A stretch of DNA of 30,766 bases. Source: a virus. Location of the stretch: positions 1-30,766 of the IMG/VR virus record IMGVR_UViG_3300030685_000072; one strand, 5' to 3'. The translations under genes and the position numbers were made by a program. The notes beneath the pieces were generated by a model, which saw only the letters and a program-made list of their open reading frames with translations, ran no database searches and was not told the origin of the DNA. Shown piece after piece: positions 2,839 to 21,926 of this stretch (position 1 is the stretch's first letter; the number at the start of each line of letters is the position of its first letter).

Positions 2839-3330
2839 ATGAATGATGTAGAAAAAGAGATTTGTCTTGAGTTGATAACTCATGCAAATAACAAAACAGA
2901 AGTAAAAAATGTAATGAATGAAACATTCAAAGCATTAAACAAAAAAGAATTGAATGTATTTATAAATGAAAGTTGGAAAAAAAGAAAACTGACAAGTAAG
3001 ATATCAATGTCTAATCTAGAATATAGAGAGAAAAGAGATTTATTGCAATCGCTACTTATTAAAAAAGCGTTTGGAGAAATTAAGCATATTTATGTAACAA
3101 TAAACAAGTGCTTAAGCAAAGATACTCCATTCGATATGTATAAGTCAATGATTGGAACTGGTAATCTTTATGTTCAAAGGAGGGAATTACAAAGAGGATC
3201 TGAAGTAGAGTTATTGAGATTCGATGAAAATGGAATCAAAATTCTAGTTGAAGATCTAAATTGGAAAGGATATGAATTCTATTTCTTAGTGTACGATATT
3301 AATTGTCGTAATTACATAAGAATAGAATAA
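2839..3330 (+). CDS. Hypothetical protein, 163 aa
   Basis: Function unknown. The N-terminal ~60 residues are charged and probably helical; the C-terminal third (ELQRGSEVELLRFDENGIKI onward) looks like beta strands ending in aromatic residues. The start is preceded by TTATCAAAATG, the leader motif shared by several genes here. It is followed by a 380-base gap containing a tRNA-like element. Confidence 0.82.
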   Translation: MNDVEKEICLELITHANNKTEVKNVMNETFKALNKKELNVFINESWKKRKLTSKISMSNLEYREKRDLLQSLLIKKAFGEIKHIYVTINKCLSKDTPFDMYKSMIGTGNLYVQRRELQRGSEVELLRFDENGIKILVEDLNWKGYEFYFLVYDINCRNYIRIE

Positions 3331-3404
3331 AGAAGTACGGCCCGCTAGGTCGTTTGATTCGTCAGGAAGACCGGGCTAGCATATGCCCGCACCTCCACCA
3401 AAAC

Positions 3405-3491
3405 TATCATGTAATACGTAATGGCAAAATCGATTATGTCATCCATAGCAATATGGTTGTATCGTTGCGGGTTTGAGTCCCGCCATGGTAG
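3405..3491 (+). tRNA. tRNA-like element, long variable region, CAT in the loop
   Basis: The acceptor TATCATG (3405-3411) pairs with CATGGTA (3484-3490), all seven positions with one wobble, and the T arm GCGGG/CCCGC has loop TTTGAGT. A D-like arm with TAATGGC in the loop pairs through ATaCG/CGAT with one bulge. The anticodon arm is weak: TTAT/ATAG around GTCATCC, placing CAT at the anticodon, though G and C at the loop ends could pair and shrink the loop. About 18 bases remain before the T arm, like a type II variable arm (AATAT with AT-c-GTT). A long variable arm with CAT would be unusual. An alternative hairpin CCATA-GCAA-TATGG also fits. It may be an odd or decayed tRNA. Confidence 0.38.
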
Positions 3492-3599
3492 CATTAAATT
3501 AATACGGGGGTGACCAGCATTGATTCGGACAAGATGATAACGAATAGGACTGCACAATGTCTATAACAGGCAATAAAACAATCCAAATCAACAACTACG

Positions 3600-3685
3600 T
3601 AGGCCTTGTAGCCTAATAGCCTAGAATGTACCTATCAGGCACGTGAGCAAATGCCGCACGTTATATTCAATTGTTACCTGATAGG
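3600..3685 (+). ncRNA. Nested hairpins before the 3710 gene
   Basis: TAGGC/GCCTA (3600-3604 with 3611-3615) is followed by a perfect 9-bp stem CCTATCAGG/CCTGATAGG (3631-3639 with 3677-3685) that encloses ACGTG/CACGT (3641-3645 with 3657-3661). The region 3492-3709 otherwise has no coding signal I can see. The nested hairpin ends 24 bases before the next start codon, so it may be a leader structure; an attenuator is possible since TTTT follows. Confidence 0.4.
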
Positions 3686-3709
3686 GTTTTATTATTAATC
3701 AATAGTAAT

Positions 3710-4405
3710 ATGGGAAAAGAACCAAGAGAATTTATTAAAAACCTAGAAATAGGAAAGACTTATATACTAGTTTGGTTTGATTTCATATTTATTGGAATAT
3801 TGAAAGATAAAACCTGGAGAAATGAGTCCTATGAAGTGCTAGTTTTCGAAAGTGAACAGCAATACATATCAAATAGAAATGAAGTATCAAAAATGCTTCA
3901 TAAAGAAGGAGGTAAAACTCAATTATATTGCACTAATTCTATTATATTCGAAAATAATATAATAGATGGAAAGTACTATGATTGGTTTATGTCAAAAATG
4001 AAGTCAGTAAATATCAGTAAAGTTAATGGCAAAAATACTATAGTCAATACAGGAATAGCAAAAAGTATGATTATAAAGGATTTATCAAAGATTTTACAGA
4101 GAAGAGAACTGTCTTTATTTGAAGATATATTAAATAGTAAAGGCGTTATACTAGTCCAAAACTATCAAAAAAAATACAGAGACATCGTTTCGTCTCAAGA
4201 AGACCAAATGCCATTTAATGTAGAATTTCCAATTAAAAAATGCGAAATGTATCCAGAATTAGATGCAGAAGTAGAATTAACCATCAATGGACAAACAATG
4301 TCTTCATCAATGAAATATGCTCATGAGTTTTTTAACGAATGGAAAGGACATATTAATGCTGGATTAGTAATTTTTAAAATGAAAAAATTATGCCAAAAAA
4401 AATAA
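3710..4405 (+). CDS. Hypothetical protein, 231 aa
   Basis: Function unknown. I chose ATG 3710 (MGKEPREF) because the frame upstream to TTG 3671 runs through the 9-bp hairpin 3631-3685, and ATCAATAGTAATATG resembles neighbouring leaders. The N-terminus (residues 10-45) is hydrophobic and beta-rich (TYILVWFDFIFIGILKD); the centre is mixed; the C-terminal ~60 residues include an acidic strand-rich stretch (DAEVELTINGQTM). The hydrophobic run is interrupted by Asp and is more likely a core strand than a membrane segment. The end overlaps a small ORF starting at 4390. Confidence 0.8.
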   Translation: MGKEPREFIKNLEIGKTYILVWFDFIFIGILKDKTWRNESYEVLVFESEQQYISNRNEVSKMLHKEGGKTQLYCTNSIIFENNIIDGKYYDWFMSKMKSVNISKVNGKNTIVNTGIAKSMIIKDLSKILQRRELSLFEDILNSKGVILVQNYQKKYRDIVSSQEDQMPFNVEFPIKKCEMYPELDAEVELTINGQTMSSSMKYAHEFFNEWKGHINAGLVIFKMKKLCQKK

Positions 4406-4515
4406 AAAAAACAATAAGCTCCGAAACTGCAATATTAGATGATAAAAGTTATTTAGTATTTCATAATTGGAAAAAAGAAGCCAAATTGAAATGGAGGTTC
4501 TGTAAAATTGATTGA
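4390..4515 (+). CDS. Possible 41-aa basic protein bridging two genes
   Basis: Reads MPKKIKKTISSE to WRFCKID; function unknown. It overlaps the end of the preceding gene by 16 bases and the start of the phosphoesterase by 8, which would fit a translationally coupled chain. The composition is lysine-rich. No independent ribosome site is evident. It could be a spurious frame over the real leader of the phosphoesterase. Confidence 0.42.
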   Translation: MPKKIKKTISSETAILDDKSYLVFHNWKKEAKLKWRFCKID

Positions 4516-5032
4516 CATAGGATTTATAGGTGATCCTCATTTTGGACATGAGGCAATAGCAAATATTCGTGGCTTTACTGATATTGATAAATACAATCAA
4601 GAAGTAATCTATCGAATTAATTCGGTATTACATAAACGGTCATTACTTTATTTAATGGGAGATATTACAATGGAAAATTCAAAGTGGTATCATTTATTAG
4701 ATGAAATAAAAGCAAGAATTGTAGTTATTGGAGGAAATCACGACTTAAGAAAAGATTTTCCAGAACTAATGAAACATGTAGAAGCCGTAATAGGGACTCT
4801 AAAATATCATGGAGCTATTTTTACGCATATACCAATTCATACTCAGGAAGTAAACAGATTTTTATTTAATGCTCATGCTCATACGCACGAAGAATTAATA
4901 AAAAGATGGGCTTATGAGGCTGGTGGATATACGGCAAGGGAAGAAATAGATAAAAGATATACATGTCTTAGTTGGGATAGACTCGAGGGCATACCTTGGT
5001 CTTGGGAACAAATACTAAATAGTAGAAAATAA
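4508..5032 (+). CDS. Calcineurin-like metallophosphoesterase, 174 aa
   Basis: Predicted two-metal phosphoesterase. The five family motifs are present in order: GDPHFGH (Asp9, His11), GD at 51-52, GNHD at 76-79, TH at 106-107 with His111, and the terminal H-x-H series in NAHAHTHEE (His123, 125, 127). The length suits small cytosolic members of the family, which hydrolyse phosphodiesters or phosphomonoesters of nucleotides or nucleic acids; the substrate here is unknown. The start is TTG, since no ATG lies before the first motif in this frame and GGAGG at 4493-4497 is well spaced from it, one of few Shine-Dalgarno sites in the window. The C-terminal Trp-rich tail (SWDRLEGIPWSWEQI) is unassigned. 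Confidence 0.9.
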   Translation: MIDIGFIGDPHFGHEAIANIRGFTDIDKYNQEVIYRINSVLHKRSLLYLMGDITMENSKWYHLLDEIKARIVVIGGNHDLRKDFPELMKHVEAVIGTLKYHGAIFTHIPIHTQEVNRFLFNAHAHTHEELIKRWAYEAGGYTAREEIDKRYTCLSWDRLEGIPWSWEQILNSRK

Positions 5033-5048
5033 TTTAAAATCATATCAA

Positions 5049-5303
5049 ATGAATGAAATCAAAGTAAAAGAGATTTACAAGATAAAGGCGTTAGTAGAAA
5101 GGCTATTAGCTATTCCTGACAAAAAGATTGTAAGAACCAAGAAAGTAAAAAAGTTGGTTAAATTAAGATCCGGTAAAACGATATTGCGAATTCAAAAAAA
5201 GCAATATACAGTGTTACAGGCACTGGGGAAAAAGCAAAATCAGCTTTTAGAAAGAAAGCAAGAACAATTGAAACAGTTGAAAATTGAATTAAAAATCTCG
5301 TAA
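5049..5303 (+). CDS. Small basic protein, 84 aa
   Basis: Function unknown. Very rich in Lys, Leu and Gln. Residues 28-52 are strongly basic (VRTKKVKKLVKLRSGK) and residues 55-84 look like an amphipathic helix or coiled coil. The start follows CATATCAAATG, the local leader motif. A nucleic-acid-binding or accessory role is plausible by composition only. It is the first of three consecutive short basic genes. Confidence 0.7.
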   Translation: MNEIKVKEIYKIKALVERLLAIPDKKIVRTKKVKKLVKLRSGKTILRIQKKQYTVLQALGKKQNQLLERKQEQLKQLKIELKIS

Positions 5304-5317
5304 AAACCACTATCAAA

Positions 5318-5443
5318 ATGAGCAAAACATTGAAGCAAAAAAGAATCTTGAAAATGAAAAAATCTTTGAGAGCTTGGGTTAGAGCCGGAAAACTAGCTAT
5401 AGCAAGAACAAAGGATCGCACCGGAGAAGTAAAACAAAATTAA
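5318..5443 (+). CDS. Small basic protein, 41 aa
   Basis: Reads MSKTLKQKRILKM to GEVKQN; function unknown. About one third of residues are Lys or Arg. The start is set by CTATCAAAATG directly upstream, 14 bases after the previous stop, and the next gene follows after 14 bases with the same leader. This regular spacing supports it as a real gene despite its size. Confidence 0.62.
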   Translation: MSKTLKQKRILKMKKSLRAWVRAGKLAIARTKDRTGEVKQN

Positions 5444-6464: not shown

Positions 6465-7010
6465 ATGAACACAAAAGAGGCAATAGAACTTGCTAAGGTG
6501 GGTTCAGAAAAAGCATTTACATACCTATATAATACGTATCATAAAGTAATTTATAGTAATATTTATTATATAGTAAAAAACAAAGATGTAGCTGATGATT
6601 TATTATCAGAGACATTTTTAAAAGCGTTCAAGAATATAGATAAATTCACAAAAGATATTTCATTTGAAATGTGGTTAAAAACCATAGCTAATAATCATAG
6701 TATTGACTTTATTCGTAGTATAAATAAAGAACAAAACAATGTTTATGTAGATGATGATTTACTAAAAGAATTTATCTATACAGATAATAGCAATCCTGAA
6801 AAGGAATTGATCAAGAAAGAAGAATATGGTAGGTTTGAACGAGGATTAGTAAGCCTTAGCAAGAAACAAGAAGAGGTATTAAGATGTAGATATAATGACA
6901 ATATGTCCTATAAGGAAATAGCTGAAAAATTAAATCTAAGTATTGGTACAATTAAACATTATATTCATCGTTACAAAAATAAATTAATTACAAATATTAA
7001 CAACCAGTAA
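6465..7010 (+). CDS. ECF-type RNA polymerase sigma factor, 181 aa
   Basis: Predicted sigma-70-family factor with regions 2 and 4 only, which should redirect host RNA polymerase to particular promoters. Region 2 spans about residues 15-85 and includes DVADDLLSETFLKAF (41-55), the core-binding helix, and FEMWLKTIANNHSIDFIRS (67-85), the region 2.3/2.4 part. Region 4 spans 130-175 with the helix-turn-helix MSYKEIAEKLNLSIGTIKHYIHR (147-169). Length and spacing match ECF factors. No anti-sigma gene is recognised, although the next gene codes for a protein with one N-terminal hydrophobic segment. It is probably an early or middle regulator. Confidence 0.9.
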   Translation: MNTKEAIELAKVGSEKAFTYLYNTYHKVIYSNIYYIVKNKDVADDLLSETFLKAFKNIDKFTKDISFEMWLKTIANNHSIDFIRSINKEQNNVYVDDDLLKEFIYTDNSNPEKELIKKEEYGRFERGLVSLSKKQEEVLRCRYNDNMSYKEIAEKLNLSIGTIKHYIHRYKNKLITNINNQ

Positions 7011-8967: not shown

Positions 8968-9324
8968 ATGACTCCTCAAATTCAGGTAATTCGCATGAAG
9001 AGTGCGAGATTAAAAAGGCTTTATGAAGCTAGAATAAAAGCGGCAGAACTCCGATATGTACAATTGTATGGAGATGAATTTCTAACAGATCCGCTAAAAG
9101 AGTTAATAAGTCGTCTTGATTCAAAAATCAAGGTGATAGAGACTGAAATACAAGGAGAAATAAAGACAATCACTGGCTATAATGATAACATACATGTAAA
9201 AGTTCACTACATAAGCCAGGCAGAAATTAAAGCCGGTATATTAAATCTATCATTGGCTGACGATGGTAAAGATTTTCTAGACCTAAACACAGGCGAAATT
9301 GTGTTATATCAATTGATCAGTTAA
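8968..9324 (+). CDS. Hypothetical protein, 118 aa, coiled coil
   Basis: Function unknown. Starts 3 bases after the stop of the secreted protein. Residues 8-55 are a long charged helix with a heptad-like pattern (MKSARLKRLYEARIKAAELRY, split by a short loop); the second half is beta-rich (TITGYNDNIHVKVHYI). It is the last gene before a 2-kb noncoding region. Confidence 0.78.
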   Translation: MTPQIQVIRMKSARLKRLYEARIKAAELRYVQLYGDEFLTDPLKELISRLDSKIKVIETEIQGEIKTITGYNDNIHVKVHYISQAEIKAGILNLSLADDGKDFLDLNTGEIVLYQLIS

Positions 9325-9332
9325 AATCTGGC

Positions 9333-9348
9333 ACCGCAGATATGCGGT
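9333..9348 (+). terminator. Tetraloop hairpin after the 8968 gene
   Basis: ACCGCA-GATA-TGCGGT, a perfect 6-bp stem, begins 9 bases after the stop codon. The T tract behind it is short, so it may be a weak terminator or a 3' end stabiliser. A second hairpin ATTCGA/TCGAAT lies at 9359-9364 and 9377-9382. Confidence 0.5.
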
Positions 9349-9429
9349 TTCAATATATATTCGAATCGAGTTATTATCGAATTAAAATAAGCAGTTAGAT
9401 AACAAAAATGAGATTACCATACTATTTTA

Positions 9430-10620
9430 GTAGAGATATGTAATTAAAATGCGGCGGGGGGCTGTCGCTATATAAAACGTCCAAAAATAATATGAAGGTT
9501 TACGTAGTTTCCCCACCTTTAAACAACGCGATAAAGGAAACAGTGTACGCAATAGCATAGTCATATTGCCCGCAGGTTTAAGCTTCTTAGCGAATCAAGA
9601 AGTAGGTGTCTAGGTTTTGAAACCGGCCCAGGCGAAAGCCGATTAAATACGAATTATTAGTACAGTAATAATTAACGGCAATCACGAATCCAAATATTAA
9701 CTTTGATTGTGAATGAGTATGCTTCTCTAAAAGCAAGTCGCTAGTGGTGGCGAAGAACATGAACCACAAACAATTCTTTAGAGTACCTTAGAAAAGTACG
9801 CGGCCTTTAATAAAGTAAGACCAAAAGAATAGTAATTAGCAAGAGATGTGAGCCGCAACTCACATAAGCAGCACATATTACAATAAATCAGCCTTCAAGT
9901 TATGGTTAGTTCATAAATTTCCTATAGGAATAAGGAAGATAATATAGATTAAGATCGTTCATGTTGGATTCGATCACAAAAGAAAAACATGAGCAGGGAG
10001 CTTTGCAGAAGCGAACCGGCTATATAACCAACAGAACTGCAAAAACCCGCGAATCAGGGAATATGATATGCGTGAGCAGAAGCAAATATAGGCTCTTTAA
10101 TATATTTCAGCCCGACAGAAATATAGATCGTCCTTAAGTGGGACTATACACTTTATTAGTCTATAAATACTACTTATGGACAGCATTTTTAGTAGGTATC
10201 TCCCTATCTCGGAGAATATTGAATAGCGAAAAACATTATGTCTGGTAGCAATGCAAGTAGAAAACATAGAACTACTATAAAAGCTTATGTCTACATTTCA
10301 AAGGATGACACGATCCAGAAGAAATGAAATACGTCCTGAAGTTTAGAATCCTTGGAAATACACGATAAAAACCAAGAAGAACACATGAAAGCAAGCCGGT
10401 CCAAACGGTACACAAACTATTAGTATTCCAATAGGAATAAGGGTAGCCCTTGCCTGATGTTAATAAAAGTAGTCACTAAATAGGGATTAAATGCAAAGTT
10501 AAGAAGTTCTTTAAAAACTTCATGTGCACAATATTCAAGGATTGTCTTAGGAATTTTAGAACACCAATAATTAAAAAAGTTAGGAGCTAATACAAGATTC
10601 GCACACAATGGTTTTTATTA
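9430..10620 (+). ncRNA. Candidate ~1.2-kb ornate noncoding RNA
   Basis: No frame longer than about 60 codons reads through, and the GC content is locally higher than in the genes. Helices visible by eye include 9451-9455 with 9464-9468 (loop of six G plus CT), 9495-9499 with 9515-9519 (loop containing CCCC at 9511-9514), GGC-GAAA-GCC at 9631-9640, 9652-9659 with 9666-9673 (8 bp), 9682-9690 with 9705-9712, 9846-9852 with 9859-9865 (7 bp), 9953-9957 with 9971-9975, 10002-10008 with 10037-10043 (7 bp), 10351-10355 with 10372-10376, and 10423-10428 with 10433-10438. The G-rich and C-rich loops could form a kissing contact. A T-rich stretch after 10610 may end the transcript. GOLLD and ROOL RNAs of phages are comparable in size and setting, but homology is not established. 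Ends are approximate; strand inferred from neighbours. Confidence 0.55.
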
Positions 10621-10785
10621 TATTTTTTCAACAAAAAGTATAAATTAATAAATAACATTTTTATATATTGCAGACAATTGTAGATAAATAAGACTATGAA
10701 TCTTATTTAAAAAAGTATATTAAAAATGATAAATTTTGGAGACTCCCATGTTTATAAATCAATTTATTAATATAACATATTAAGA

Positions 10786-10855
10786 GCGATTTAAACCACT
10801 TTTATGCAGTTATAGTAACATATATCAGTAAGACGTATAAACTGTCTTAAATCGC
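10786..10855 (+). ncRNA. Small RNA closed by a perfect 9-bp stem
   Basis: GCGATTTAA (10786-10794) is exactly complementary to TTAAATCGC (10847-10855), enclosing 52 bases. It stands in an AT-rich stretch (10621-11070) with no gene. Other hairpins there are GTAGG/CCTAC with a 7-base loop TGAAGAT at 10957-10973 and ATACTAT/ATAGTAT at 10974-10992. The strand cannot be decided from pairing. Confidence 0.38.
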
Positions 10856-11078
10856 ATGCAAATGGCCTTATTTGGCCTAAATACAGTTTGAATAGCTCTG
10901 TCCACATTGAAGAATGCCTATTTCCAAAGCATAGATAAATGTATAGGTTAACTTGAGTAGGTGAAGATCCTACATACTATAGTAAATAGTATAACTAATT
11001 ATTTTTATGAAATATAAAAATCAAATAAACACGATTTATGTAAGAACTCGGTAGAGAAAGCTTATATATTAATACAAG

Positions 11079-11166
11079 AATTACGTATCGTACTATAAAG
11101 TTGACATTGCGGCTCAGATAGATAACCGAAAGGGTTCAAAACAGGCTGAGAGTTAAGGACGTAATT
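11079..11166 (+). ncRNA. Structured RNA with nested GAAA-loop hairpin
   Basis: AATTACGT (11079-11086) pairs perfectly with ACGTAATT (11159-11166). Inside, CTCAG pairs with CTGAG and encloses AACC-GAAA-GGGTT, a GNRA-type loop. The length (88 nt) and closed form match the elements at 1021 and 1133, but the sequences are not alike. It lies 200 bases before the gene at 11365. Strand is inferred. Confidence 0.45.
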
Positions 11167-11318
11167 TATATTTTATATTTTCAGAAACTATCCAATCAAA
11201 TTCTTTAAATGTAGTTGGCAGTTATGGAAGCCCATGCGAGTGACAACAGATTTTAGCAATATTATCAAAGAGGGTGCATCATTCCAACAAATTGGATTTT
11301 CCAATACACAAACAAATT

Positions 11319-11364
11319 AATTATCAAAATAAGTAAATAATCAATATTAAAAAAGGAGGTCAAA
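11319..11364 (+). promoter_or_regulatory. Leader motif plus strong Shine-Dalgarno
   Basis: AATTATCAAAAT (11319-11330) stands 34 bases upstream of the ATG, and six A followed by GGAGGT lies just before it. This is the same combination seen before the gene at 7515 and indicates that the AATTATCAAAAT element is not merely start-codon context. Confidence 0.7.
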
Positions 11365-11838
11365 ATGAATACAAAGAACACAGCAGCGCGGAAATTATTT
11401 ATTGGCGCAGATATTTTCACGTTGAAACAAGTAGATGTAGATGACAATCATGTCCGGAAAGACAAAGAAAATCGTATCGAAGTAAAAGCGACCCTAGTTA
11501 CACCAAAAGTAATTCATGTAAATGAAGTAAAAGGTGTAAAAGGTATGGGTGGACAAGATATCATTATTGTTAATGGTGGAGAAAACAAAATCTCTATCCC
11601 AGCGAATTATCAATTCGTTGAAGATGCAAAAAACTTCGACATTGAGAAAAGCAATGAATCTCGCCCGCAATTTTTCGCAGACCATAAATCAGCCGTAGAA
11701 ATTGCAAATGCCCATAATACAGGCGAATTAATTCGCTTGCAAATTATCAAAGAAGATTTGGAAAGCCAAATCAAGGCATTGAAAGATGTCATTAATGCAA
11801 ATGTAGCCCAATCCGGTCTATATAGCAACGAAGACTAA
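11365..11838 (+). CDS. Hypothetical protein, 157 aa, with strong ribosome site
   Basis: Function unknown. The first ~85 residues look like a beta-rich domain (repeated Val/Ile strands, RIEVKATLVTPKVIHVNEV), with a glycine-rich turn GVKGMGGQD and VNGGENK; residues 110-150 are helical (TGELIRLQIIKEDLESQIKAL) and may form a coiled coil. The strong GGAGG site suggests an abundant protein. No Cys. The position directly after the large noncoding region is notable. It might be an RNA- or DNA-binding or structural protein, but nothing in the sequence decides. Confidence 0.85.
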   Translation: MNTKNTAARKLFIGADIFTLKQVDVDDNHVRKDKENRIEVKATLVTPKVIHVNEVKGVKGMGGQDIIIVNGGENKISIPANYQFVEDAKNFDIEKSNESRPQFFADHKSAVEIANAHNTGELIRLQIIKEDLESQIKALKDVINANVAQSGLYSNED

Positions 11839-14616: not shown

Positions 14617-15183
14617 ATGCTGATAGAAATAGATTTGGAAGAGGCGAGACGTCTCAAAATCAACATGAATCAGTTCGTATTAATAAGTTTATTAATGTCA
14701 AATAGCGATATCAAATCGCTGCTGGATGTTATCCCCATCAGCGAAGATGACGTAAATAAACTTATATCAAAAGATATATTAACAAAAGAATCAGTTTTTG
14801 ATTCGAAAGATTTTTCAAAATTAATCATAAATGACGACTTTAAAAATAAAGTAAAAGTCAAGGATTTCTTTACTGAATTCTTTGATGCTTACCCAGCTTC
14901 AGTAACACGTACTGATGGACTTAAAGACTATTTACGGGGAGATATATCTCGTTGTAGAAAGTATTATACTAAGGAAGTTGGAAATATTCGAAGCAAACAT
15001 GACCACATGATGGAGTGTTTAAAATTCGAAGTAGAAGCAAGAAAAAGAGCAGGATCATTAGGATACATGAAAAGAATGTCCAAATGGCTACTTTCAGAAG
15101 AATGGCTTCTTTATGATGAATTTATGAAAGATAAGAAGATACAAAAACAAGCAGGAACAATATATGGAACAGATATCGAGTAA
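14617..15183 (+). CDS. Hypothetical protein upstream of DnaB, possible helicase-loading factor
   Basis: 188 aa, no family recognised. Residues ~85-165 (DFFTEFFDAYP, DYLRGDISRCRKYY, GYMKRMSKWLLSEEWLLYDEF) look helical with conserved-looking Trp/Tyr; replication-initiation or loader proteins often lie immediately before a phage DnaB gene, and this one overlaps DnaB by 20 bases, so a role in loading or initiation is a guess from position. The N-terminal 80 residues are acidic and Leu/Ile-rich with several Ser-Asp pairs. Confidence 0.8.
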   Translation: MLIEIDLEEARRLKINMNQFVLISLLMSNSDIKSLLDVIPISEDDVNKLISKDILTKESVFDSKDFSKLIINDDFKNKVKVKDFFTEFFDAYPASVTRTDGLKDYLRGDISRCRKYYTKEVGNIRSKHDHMMECLKFEVEARKRAGSLGYMKRMSKWLLSEEWLLYDEFMKDKKIQKQAGTIYGTDIE

Positions 15184-16421
15184 GAAAGTACTTGGATATA
15201 GGCACATATCAACTGCTACAAATGAAATTGTTAATTATATTCAAGATAGACGTAAAAAACGAGTAAAATCACTTGCTACACGATGGCCTAAGTTTAATAG
15301 ACTAGCCATGGGTGGTATAGAGCCAAATGTTATATATACTATAGCAGGAGTCTCTGGAAGTGGTAAATCTTCGTTTGTTAATACATTAGAGACTGATTTA
15401 ATAGATCTAAATCCAGATGAAGACATTGTCATACTTAGTTTCAGTTTTGAAATGCTAAGCTCAAGACAGGTCGGAAGAAAACTATCATATAAGCTAAAAA
15501 AGACTACTTCTGAATTATACAGTGCCTCCGAAAAGGGACTTGTTACAGAAGAAGAATATGCAGATGTAGAAAAGGAGGCGAAATCCATAATGAACTATCC
15601 AGTTTATTATGTCGATACTCCTGGGAACGTGCAAGAAATAGCAAATACAATAAAATTCTTTCAAGATACATTTGCAAAAAACAAATGGCTTGTAGTTATC
15701 ATAGATCATACCTTATTGATTAAGGGAAGTGGAACTGGTAATGAAAGAGAAATCATAGTGGATTTAGAAAAAGAACTAATAGGAGCAAAGAAAGTTGGTA
15801 AAACTTCTATTATACAAATATCACAAATGAATAGAAATATTGAATCTCCCGAGAGACTGAATAATAATTCATTGCATTATCCTCAGCGCAGCGATTTGTC
15901 ATCAAGCGATGCAGTATTTCAAGGATCTGACTATGTAATAGTAATACATAGACCAGAAGTTCTTGGTTTGCTATCTTATGGATATAATAATCTTCCTGTA
16001 AAGGATTGCATATACCTTCATTTTCTAAATAAATGGAACTTTGCTGCGTAATCAGCATCGAAAATTTGGTGAATTGCTGGAAAATCCTGAAGAGGACAAT
16101 CAGCAGCCAAGACTTATTTTAAATGGATAAGTAAGGTTCAACGACTAGATATTGAAACTGTTAAATACAGAATATATATATATCCACGAGCGCCAAACAC
16201 CCTACATGGGTGATGATATAGTCTGAACTGCAAATATAACAAAAGAAATTGCAGATATATAGGATAAAGAGCCTATATGATAACAAATTTGAAAAAATAG
16301 AGAAGGCGATATAAAGATCCTCAAGTTTATAAATGATTTAAAATATAATAATCTAAAAGAACCAGAAGAAGAGGATGAAAAGACAATAGGCCAACAATCA
16401 TTAGAATTTGAAAAAAAATAA
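15164..16421 (+). CDS. dnaB: DnaB-type replicative helicase, intron-split (join 15164-16026, 16292-16421)
   Basis: Replicative helicase, RecA-fold ATPase domain of the DnaB family, lacking the N-terminal primase-contact domain (330 aa after splicing). Walker A is GVSGSGKS (62-69), Walker B is LVVIIDH with Asp181, and QISQMNR (about 216-222) matches the family's H3-type motif. As read directly, the frame stops at 16051 after HFLNKWNFAA. Removing 16027-16291 gives HFLKNREGDIKIL, the family's C-terminal hallmark with the Lys-Asn-Arg finger that completes the active site of the next subunit. The acidic tail KEPEEEDEK ends at 16421. So the apparent truncation is an intron, not decay. The gene overlaps its upstream neighbour and leads the replication block. 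Confidence 0.92.
16027..16291 (+). ncRNA. Group I intron in dnaB (265 nt, no ORF)
   Basis: Self-splicing intron. The 5' exon end TTCT pairs with GGAA (16035-16038), placing the required U-G pair at the splice site. P2 TGCTG/CAGCA (16042-16046 with 16053-16057), P4 GCTG/CAGC (16076-16079 with 16101-16104), P5 TCCT/AGGA, P6 CTTAT/ATAAG (16113-16117 with 16127-16131), R GTTCAACGACTAGA (16136-16149), P8 CACCC/GGGTG, S with TAGTC (16219-16223) pairing GACTA (16143-16147) as P7, P9 CTGCAA/TTGCAG, P9.1 ATATAGG/CCTATAT. The last base is G16291. From memory the order and the TCGAAAA and GATATAGTCTGAAC stretches resemble the intron of staphylococcal phage Twort (subgroup IA2). It has no endonuclease gene, so it is either a minimal intron or has lost one. 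Confidence 0.92.
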
Positions 16422-16425
16422 AATT

Positions 16426-16959
16426 ATGGATAACAAAAATAAATTTGCAGTTAAACTGCCATCATTTCTTAACGACATTAATTTATTGTATAAAACTAGT
16501 TTAGTAGATACAATTATTGATAAGTATCCACATTTAACTATGGCCGGTATTGATACCCCATACGAAACATCACGTGGAAATAAGATTAATGGTGTTGAAA
16601 ATGCAAAACCAAACGATTATATTACCTTTGGAACCTCTCGTACACATGATGTGAATTGGATGAGCAAAGGAGAAGAAGATACATTTAATTATTTGAATCG
16701 TACTGGAGTTCCTGTATATGATCTGCAAAAAGATTATAGTAAGGTAATGTACAATTTGGATAAATTTGCGACCGCAAACAAACCAAAAGAAACTTGTAAT
16801 TGTGATTATTGCAATTATAATAAAGTACAGAAATTTGATGCTTTTACAAAGGTTGGATATACTATTATTCCAACACCAAAAGTGACTCCAACATATTGCT
16901 ATGGATATTTTAATCCATATTATACAGTAAGAGTGACTACAATTAGCATTAAATTTTAA
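16426..16959 (+). CDS. Hypothetical protein, 177 aa, Cys cluster
   Basis: Function unknown. The start ATG 16426 lies 4 bases after the spliced dnaB stop; the longer frame from 16408 would overlap the dnaB exon. Residues ~122-131 contain C-x-C-x-x-C (ETCNCDYCNYN), a possible metal site. The C-terminal third is Tyr/Pro/Thr-rich (TPKVTPTYCYGYFNPYYTV). Lying between helicase and Sak4 genes, it may belong to the replication unit. Confidence 0.8.
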   Translation: MDNKNKFAVKLPSFLNDINLLYKTSLVDTIIDKYPHLTMAGIDTPYETSRGNKINGVENAKPNDYITFGTSRTHDVNWMSKGEEDTFNYLNRTGVPVYDLQKDYSKVMYNLDKFATANKPKETCNCDYCNYNKVQKFDAFTKVGYTIIPTPKVTPTYCYGYFNPYYTVRVTTISIKF

Positions 16960-20702: not shown

Positions 20703-21926
20703 ATGATCATAAAATCAAATAATAATAATACTTGGTTATTGCAACCAGAAGATATTAAAGAGTTTCTAGGAATGGAAACAGAAAAATACGTAGTAATTAA
20801 CAAAGAAACAAATGAATATTCTATCGAGAATCTTAACGAATTTGTCGTTACAGAGGCTTGGGTAGATGAAGTAATTGATGGTCGAAAACTACGAAAAATT
20901 AAAAAAGACATTCTAAAAGAATTCGGCAACGAACTTCTTAAAGAATATTCAACAACAGATAAAATCTATAAATCGTTATGCGAAAGCGGGTTTATCAATA
21001 TGGCTGGACCGTCAGAAGTAATTAAAAATGCTCTGGCAAATAATATGAATTTGATTTTATATGGTCCTGGTGGTTTTGGTAAATCAGAAGTATGTGATGC
21101 CTTATTTGGTGGAACGCTACTAAAAGATCGCGTATTTGTACAATCATTGTCTGAGGCTACTACAGAGGAAGATTTATTCGGTGGAATCAAAATGAAGAAA
21201 TTCTTAGATTCTGGCGAAAAAGAATACTTAGTAGAAAACTCATTTGCAAATAAAGAAATCGTCATTTTTGAAGAAATCTTTGACGCTCCAGCTCGAGTTT
21301 TGGCTGCATTGAAAGATACATTAACTTCCAAAGAGGTTCGTAATGGAAATCAACGATTCCCAATTAAGACAAAGATCATTATTGGTCTTACTAATAAAAC
21401 TTTCGATGAAATTATTGAAGACGACTCTACTGAGGCTTTGACTCAGCGTTTTCCAATTTCATATAAATTTCAGTATGCTATCAATCGATTAAATACTGCA
21501 AGTTTAATTTTGAATCGTCATTCAGATTTCGATAAACTAAAATTAGCCGCAATCGTAGAGACTATTCAGAATATGAAAGATTTATCTCCACGTAAAATTC
21601 TTGAAATGGCTAAATATGTCAAAAATCTTGATGTTAAAAATAATCGTAATTATTCAGAAAAGATTACGAATAATCTAATGACACCAGTTATTGATTATAT
21701 CAAAATGAAAAAAACTGTTGACATGGATAAAATTCTATTCAATGAAGTAGTTGCTTTGAAGAAAGATATCAAAGACGAAAATATTCGTGATTACGACTCA
21801 TTTGTTGACGCTTACAATAATTTAGGTGTCTTACTAGCAAACTGCGCTGGAGAAGCCCCTATGACATTGCAATTGCAATCTGAAATCAATATATTGCTTG
21901 AACTTTTAGAAAACAAACTAAAATGA
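20703..21926 (+). CDS. MoxR-like AAA+ ATPase, 407 aa
   Basis: Predicted ATP-driven remodelling protein. Walker A GPGGFGKS (121-128), Walker B IVIFEE (186-191), sensor 1 region KIIIGLTNK (about 227-235), and ALTQRFP (arginine-finger-type motif, about 246-252) are in the order seen in the MoxR/CbbQ branch. An N-terminal ~100-residue extension and a C-terminal helical domain flank the ATPase. The stop overlaps the start of the VWA gene by ATGA, so the two are translated together. MoxR ATPases usually act with a VWA partner to insert metals or assemble complexes; the target in a phage is unknown. The leader is AATTATATCAAAATG. Confidence 0.88.
   Translation: MIIKSNNNNTWLLQPEDIKEFLGMETEKYVVINKETNEYSIENLNEFVVTEAWVDEVIDGRKLRKIKKDILKEFGNELLKEYSTTDKIYKSLCESGFINMAGPSEVIKNALANNMNLILYGPGGFGKSEVCDALFGGTLLKDRVFVQSLSEATTEEDLFGGIKMKKFLDSGEKEYLVENSFANKEIVIFEEIFDAPARVLAALKDTLTSKEVRNGNQRFPIKTKIIIGLTNKTFDEIIEDDSTEALTQRFPISYKFQYAINRLNTASLILNRHSDFDKLKLAAIVETIQNMKDLSPRKILEMAKYVKNLDVKNNRNYSEKITNNLMTPVIDYIKMKKTVDMDKILFNEVVALKKDIKDENIRDYDSFVDAYNNLGVLLANCAGEAPMTLQLQSEINILLELLENKLK

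Follow-up and report, generated by a model that had tools for sequence, protein, structure and literature searches.

The closest described counterparts of the locus analysed here are GOLLD, a giant RNA of phages and prophages that in many cases exceeds 800 nt and forms a 14-mer nanocage, and ROOL, a phage RNA of about 660 nt that forms a nanocage of eight chains (PMC12286853). Like the RNA considered in this study, GOLLD is phage-encoded, very large, heavily structured and noncoding; GOLLD has been described near tRNAs. ROOL is likewise phage-encoded, large and ornate, with pseudoknots and conserved loops. OLE and HEARO are large structured noncoding RNAs of bacteria. OLE is a bacterial and not a phage RNA, and HEARO would have a TnpB-like protein alongside. 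A sequence-only reading had proposed that positions 9430-10620 of the DNA studied here hold one giant structured RNA, and the existence of a large, structured, noncoding phage RNA locus is borne out by its conservation and covariation across six lineages.

The window, that is the whole stretch of DNA analysed, is a complete IMG/VR virus record of 30,766 bases. Its DnaB-like helicase shares 58-65% protein identity with uncultured crAss-like phages, the nearest being cr118_1 (Suoliviridae, Uncouvirinae), and the window is a fragment of a crAss-like phage (Crassvirales) nearest to the Suoliviridae. The gene order agrees with that of its relatives: a sigma factor, a few small genes, the gap, the gene that we call dn, and replication genes, which include a 188-aa condensin-like gene and DnaB (14617-16051). 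The gap and its landmarks are as follows:

6465..7010, + strand: sigma-70-family factor (Pfam Sigma70_r2/r4), which anchors the synteny on the upstream side in the Suoliviridae examined
8968..9324, + strand: the conserved up gene, 118 aa, directly upstream of the gap; helical, with no database match
9325..11364, + strand: gene-free interval and RNA locus (2,040 nt) between the genes at 8968-9324 and 11365-11838, with a gap at the same place in all relatives examined
11365..11838, + strand: the conserved dn gene, 157 aa, directly downstream of the gap; a beta domain and a long C-terminal helix

AlphaFold models of the up and dn proteins are fairly confident, yet gave no significant fold match. 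Promoter and terminator scans returned nothing that exceeds shuffles. The closeness to tRNAs, known from other giant phage RNAs, holds only loosely: a single tRNA-Arg lies 3.5 kb upstream of the gap and single tRNAs, as opposed to tRNA islands, lie 1-6 kb from it in some relatives. Elsewhere in the window, a compact group I intron (RF00028, 16016-16254, 80 bits) splits the DnaB-like gene (15164-16959); at the place corresponding to this intron, the related contigs L010/L011 carry a 197-aa ORF that appears GIY-YIG-like by eye. The replication module also encodes a MoxR-type AAA ATPase (20703-21926; Pfam bpMoxR, E 5.6e-14), as in related crAss-like phages.

The earlier statement that 9430-10620 lacks a plausible gene is correct, but those coordinates are too short, the gene-free interval being 9325-11364. 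The longest ORF in the window's gap has 62 aa and lies on the minus strand, and recoding of TAG to Q or of TGA to W gave nothing convincing and no frame above 108 aa, the 108-aa recoded frame running into the dn gene on the opposite strand. In the gaps of the relatives the longest ORFs have 45-129 aa, and their strand and position differ from relative to relative; no conserved ORF was found in these gaps, nor in that of the window in standard or recoded frames. The enrichment in G and C amounts to a modest rise (about 0.36, compared with 0.31-0.33 on the upstream side and 0.26-0.29 within 10.5-11 kb). Local hairpins and a GNRA loop are present as had been noted, for example GGC-GAAA-GCC at 9631-9640. 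Unusual stability of 9430-10620 was not found: its folding energy lies at z = -1.7 relative to dinucleotide shuffles, and z-values of -4 to -8 show that this phage's coding segments form more stable folds. Hairpins in one sequence therefore prove nothing by themselves and a comparison is needed.

Such a comparison was made possible by a search with the neighbouring proteins and conserved DNA motifs, which yielded 12 IMG/VR contigs representing five further lineages (L010/L011; L019/L021 with L022; L023 with L015, L016 and L017; L027; and L026/L028, equal to L038/L039). A direct blastn search of phages with the gap gave only short matches at chance level, a 3' motif scan of the genome collection gave no match, and a search with the dn protein alone found nothing, whereas one with the dn alignment succeeded. 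Each lineage keeps both flanking protein families, enclosing a gap of 1.83-2.30 kb without a conserved ORF. In the alignment, collinear blocks are kept across lineages, for example AGGTTTAAGC..GTAGGTGTC, CTGAAGTTTAGAA, GGTCCAAACNGTACACAAA and GTCACTAAATAG, and the flanking proteins of the lineages that share these blocks are only 40-47% identical. All six lineages have the main blocks in the same order, and indels between helices are frequent. Among the relatives, three records matched the RNA, each with one copy. In L023 its version (3077-5378) has several extra peripheral insertions of about 30-90 nt each, resembling expansion segments.

Selection on base pairing was assessed with RNAalifold on the real alignments and on 24 phylogeny-preserving nulls for each, in which tree-inferred substitutions were redistributed and the structure was predicted anew. 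Clean compensatory pairs numbered 64 against a null of 22±4 (maximum 30) for the six lineages, 66 against 20±4.5 (maximum 28) for four close lineages, 90 against 23±4.7 for the gut Loutivirinae and 125 against 58±7 for the Boorivirinae; these nulls carry no site-rate variation, and coding controls, which do have such variation, show no excess (12 against 12.3, and 3 against 5.6). Within the most conserved domain, 10326-10493 (168 nt), 15 of 34 pairs changed on both sides and none of 500 shuffles matches any observed measure, the cells counted here being sequences and not independent events and the core structure having been picked partly by eye from the same sequences. The locus has homologues and covaries beyond what phylogeny accounts for, and we regard it as close to certain that it is under selection for RNA structure. 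Column-shuffle energy z-scores were set aside as evidence, since they are low for the RNA on both strands but also low for one coding control.

The strand was addressed with helices defined from Watson-Crick pairs alone, on either strand. Cells with G-U outnumber those with A-C by 21:9 in the window clade, 31:7 in the Loutivirinae and 10:4 in the Boorivirinae, an excess that is expected of RNA from the + strand, and the aligned sequences fit an RNA read from that strand. Energies from alifold show a slight preference for the + strand in the three sets tested.

The end at 10620 given in the sequence-only reading is no conserved boundary, as helices are conserved to at least 10754. The elements of the RNA are:

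9333..9348, + strand: 5'-most conserved hairpin, ACCGCA-GATA-TGCGGT, kept in five of six lineages (alignment)
9451..9482, + strand: putative H-type pseudoknot, GCGG 9451-9454 with UCGC 9465-9468 and GGGC 9459-9462 with GUCC 9479-9482
9582..9603, + strand: hairpin GCUUCUU/AAGAAGU, three covarying pairs, within the conserved block AGGUUUAAGC...GUAGGUGUC
9631..9640, + strand: GNRA hairpin GGC-GAAA-GCC (alignment); L019 and L023 have a longer extension in its stead
10159..10181, + strand: covarying hairpin GUCUAUA/UAUGGAC, four covarying pairs
10196..10219, + strand: covarying hairpin GUAUCUCCC/CGGAGAAUAU, six covarying pairs, the best single helix
10326..10493, + strand: core domain, the most conserved, with outer helix 10332-10337/10483-10488
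10341-10346/10476-10481, + strand: helix GUUUAG/CUAAAU within the core domain
10392-10395/10449-10452, + strand: helix CAAG/CUUG within the core domain
10396-10408, + strand: hairpin CCG-GUCCAAA-CGG within the core domain
10551..10600, + strand: 3' domain closed by GAAUU/GAUUC and UUAG/CUAA, three covarying pairs, one bad cell in nine pairs
10678-10686/10718-10726 and 10730-10739/10746-10754, + strand: further helices, four covarying pairs each, past the end given earlier
10760..11165, + strand: lineage-specific 3' part with long stems, for example GCGATTTAA from 10786 with TTAAATCGC, and little alignment

The hairpin at 9333-9348 may possibly mark the 5' end of the RNA or a processing site, and 10760-11165, a second stretch with long stems, may or may not belong to the main RNA. 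A kissing interaction had been suggested between a six-G loop (9456-9461) and a CCCC loop (9511-9514). Both are present in the window, but the pair is not conserved: GGGG is kept in all six lineages and CCCC is missing in four of them, which leaves the GGGG/CCCC contact unsupported. The G-run can instead pair with GYCC 20 nt downstream, and an H-type pseudoknot is compatible with all six lineages. Across 9451-9482, 95.8% of cells are paired and one pair changed on both sides, with no excess over shuffles, so this pseudoknot is suggestive only. Covariation revealed neither a kissing contact nor one between molecules.

Four subfamilies of gut Suoliviridae, represented by 13 records, also have a gap of 1.9-2.5 kb in this position (cr118, cr115, cr55, cr1, cr50, cr10, cr4, cr53, cr109, cr52, cr113, cr56 and cr6). 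These gaps are blank in the annotation save for one short ORF each in cr10_1, cr109_1 and cr113_1. In cr109_1 (L049, 4593-5030) and cr113_1 (L051, 4366-4803) the annotated ORF has about 145 aa and lies on the minus strand inside the gap, where the RNA was probably mistaken for a gene. The gut gaps are homologous to one another across subfamilies (nhmmer, down to 1e-27) and share a conserved structured RNA: a covariance model of 161 positions, R2, finds all 13 gut records including cr118 (E 1e-15 to 1e-24) and neither crAss001 nor crAss002. At the corresponding locus no 2-kb gap was seen in crAss001 (Steigviridae) or crAss002 (Intestiviridae) in the parts read, which for crAss001 exclude 50,001-61,999. 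In a separate observation, Gp96 of crAss001 (L054, NC_049977; 34871-36289) is a TROVE/Ro60-type protein (Pfam E 5.5e-13), adjoined by an unannotated gap of 906 nt (record 95965-96869). Ro60 proteins are binders of noncoding Y RNAs, and for this reason that gap may hold another RNA. In cr55_1 (L040), 2249-2449 is a RAGATH-22 RNA above the gathering score.

We regard a common origin of the window and gut RNAs as likely. The covariance models R1 and R2 each detect their own clade only, and the window and gut clades were never cross-detected. The comparison of dn with the downstream protein of the gut clade (hhalign E 2.5e-5, probability 75%) makes homology of these proteins probable. Between window and gut RNA, blastn gave eight blocks, against a shuffle mean of 0.5 and maximum of 4, and a coding control gave two. 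A hairpin consisting of AAAC, a stem and a [GA]UUGUAA loop is common to L010, L019, L023, L027 and most Loutivirinae. It is on synteny, size, dn, the blastn excess and this hairpin that the suggestion of a common origin is based.

Base-pairing selection, conservation, synteny, a + strand bias and the absence of conserved coding are observed at this locus, and the explanation that we favour, with a probability of roughly 0.55, is a gene for a giant structured + strand noncoding RNA, most likely a trans-acting scaffold. The RNA would span at least about 1.4 kb (roughly 9330-10760) inside the 2.0-kb locus. Its position, on the replication side and thereby probably in the early region, is constant in this phage lineage and probably across the Suoliviridae. 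It would fold into several covarying domains with A-rich linkers between them, and its conserved loops may make docking contacts with one another, with other copies of the RNA or with a protein, by analogy with GOLLD and ROOL. We infer a single transcript, action in trans and assembly, possibly into an oligomer. A bolder version is offered tentatively, its odds being on the low side: a Suoliviridae-wide giant RNA of single origin, which would rank with the largest structured noncoding RNAs known for bacterial viruses, would assemble during infection into an ordered particle, made of RNA only or of RNA and protein, and the phage would need it to grow normally.

Among the alternatives, the one that survives best, unlikely as we consider it, is that the locus serves dn and its operon as a cis-acting leader (5' UTR) of great length, whose fold would control expression, for example by sensing the state of phage or host or by delaying translation. 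The locus always lies directly upstream of dn or its probable homologue on the same strand, and conservation reaches the dn start codon; however, it spans the whole locus with no concentration by dn. Several other window genes have short leaders similar to the sequence beside the dn start (AATTATCAAAAT...), so that dn may be expressed independently, and known leaders are far shorter than 1.4-2.4 kb. That the locus is a set of smaller structured RNAs, each with its own function and side by side by chance, appears similarly doubtful. Since indels between helices are frequent, the gap could hold a series of such RNAs, and mostly local helices, variable linkers and lineage-specific insertions between conserved blocks, the lineage-specific 10760-11165 and a gap length varying from 1.83 to 2.30 kb all agree with this; the main blocks, however, keep their order and presence in six of six lineages, and the helix that closes the core domain spans about 150 nt.

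A DNA element, be it a replication origin or a packaging or termination site with inverted repeats acting as DNA, would fit a single copy at a fixed place beside the replication module and the low energy z-scores on both strands. We consider it very improbable, as pairing at the DNA level would not yield an excess of G-U over A-C cells of about 3:1, no GC-skew switch occurs at the locus, and known origins do not resemble 60-90 compensatory pairs over 2 kb. Even less credit can be given to a ribozyme, such as a self-splicing intron that is degenerate or went unrecognised: the same window does carry the group I intron at 16016-16254, and ribozymes typically have GNRA loops and a pseudoknot, but the gap has no Rfam group I or II match at E<=10 where the real intron scores 80 bits, its flanks are two separate intact genes and not exons, and no endonuclease or reverse transcriptase ORF lies inside. 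Protein coding through small ORFs or a recoded frame is the least credible proposal, for although phages of the Crassvirales sometimes recode stops and three gut gaps contain one short annotated ORF each, the inconsistent strand and place of the longest ORFs and the result of recoding TAG and TGA exclude conserved long frames.

Few viruses of the human gut are as abundant as the crAss-like phages, and much in their genomes is unexplained. A conserved 2-kb RNA gene that is nearly blank in every Suoliviridae annotation examined would represent a large and testable piece of missing biology. As a further giant phage RNA unrelated to GOLLD and ROOL, it would also raise the question why RNAs as large as those of the ribosome evolve repeatedly in phages. 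Its covariation-supported core is an immediate target for expression and deletion studies and for cryo-EM.

Rfam was scanned at gathering thresholds over the whole window, at E<=10 over 9250-11450, and at gathering or E<=1 in several relatives. Membership of GOLLD, ROOL, OLE or HEARO, raised as a possibility by the sequence-only reading, was not upheld: none matches in the gap (E<=10), and neither GOLLD nor ROOL in the relatives. Because no Rfam family matches, we do not assign the locus to these families or to introns, and the other option considered at the time, a new class, agrees with this result. A TnpB-like protein was not seen among the neighbours of the gap. The RF00028 intron is also a structured RNA of the same phage and served as the positive control of the scan; it lies in the DnaB-like gene and scores 80 bits, whereas the gap RNA is intergenic and undetected by Rfam. 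No description of such an RNA was found in the open PMC literature, a search with preprints and most subscription papers outside its scope. Compared with GOLLD, the gap locus is larger, keeps the same gene neighbourhood in crAss-like phages and is only loosely associated with single tRNAs. Compared with ROOL (600-660 nt), the gap RNA is at least twice as long, its covarying helices running from 9582 to 10754, more than 1.1 kb, and the core of the window clade, GUUUAG/CUAAAU with the CNG-GUCCAAA-CNG hairpin, is matched by no Rfam model. The gap RNA is thus a genuine class of giant phage RNA, apparently undescribed, and an analogue and not a member of GOLLD or ROOL.
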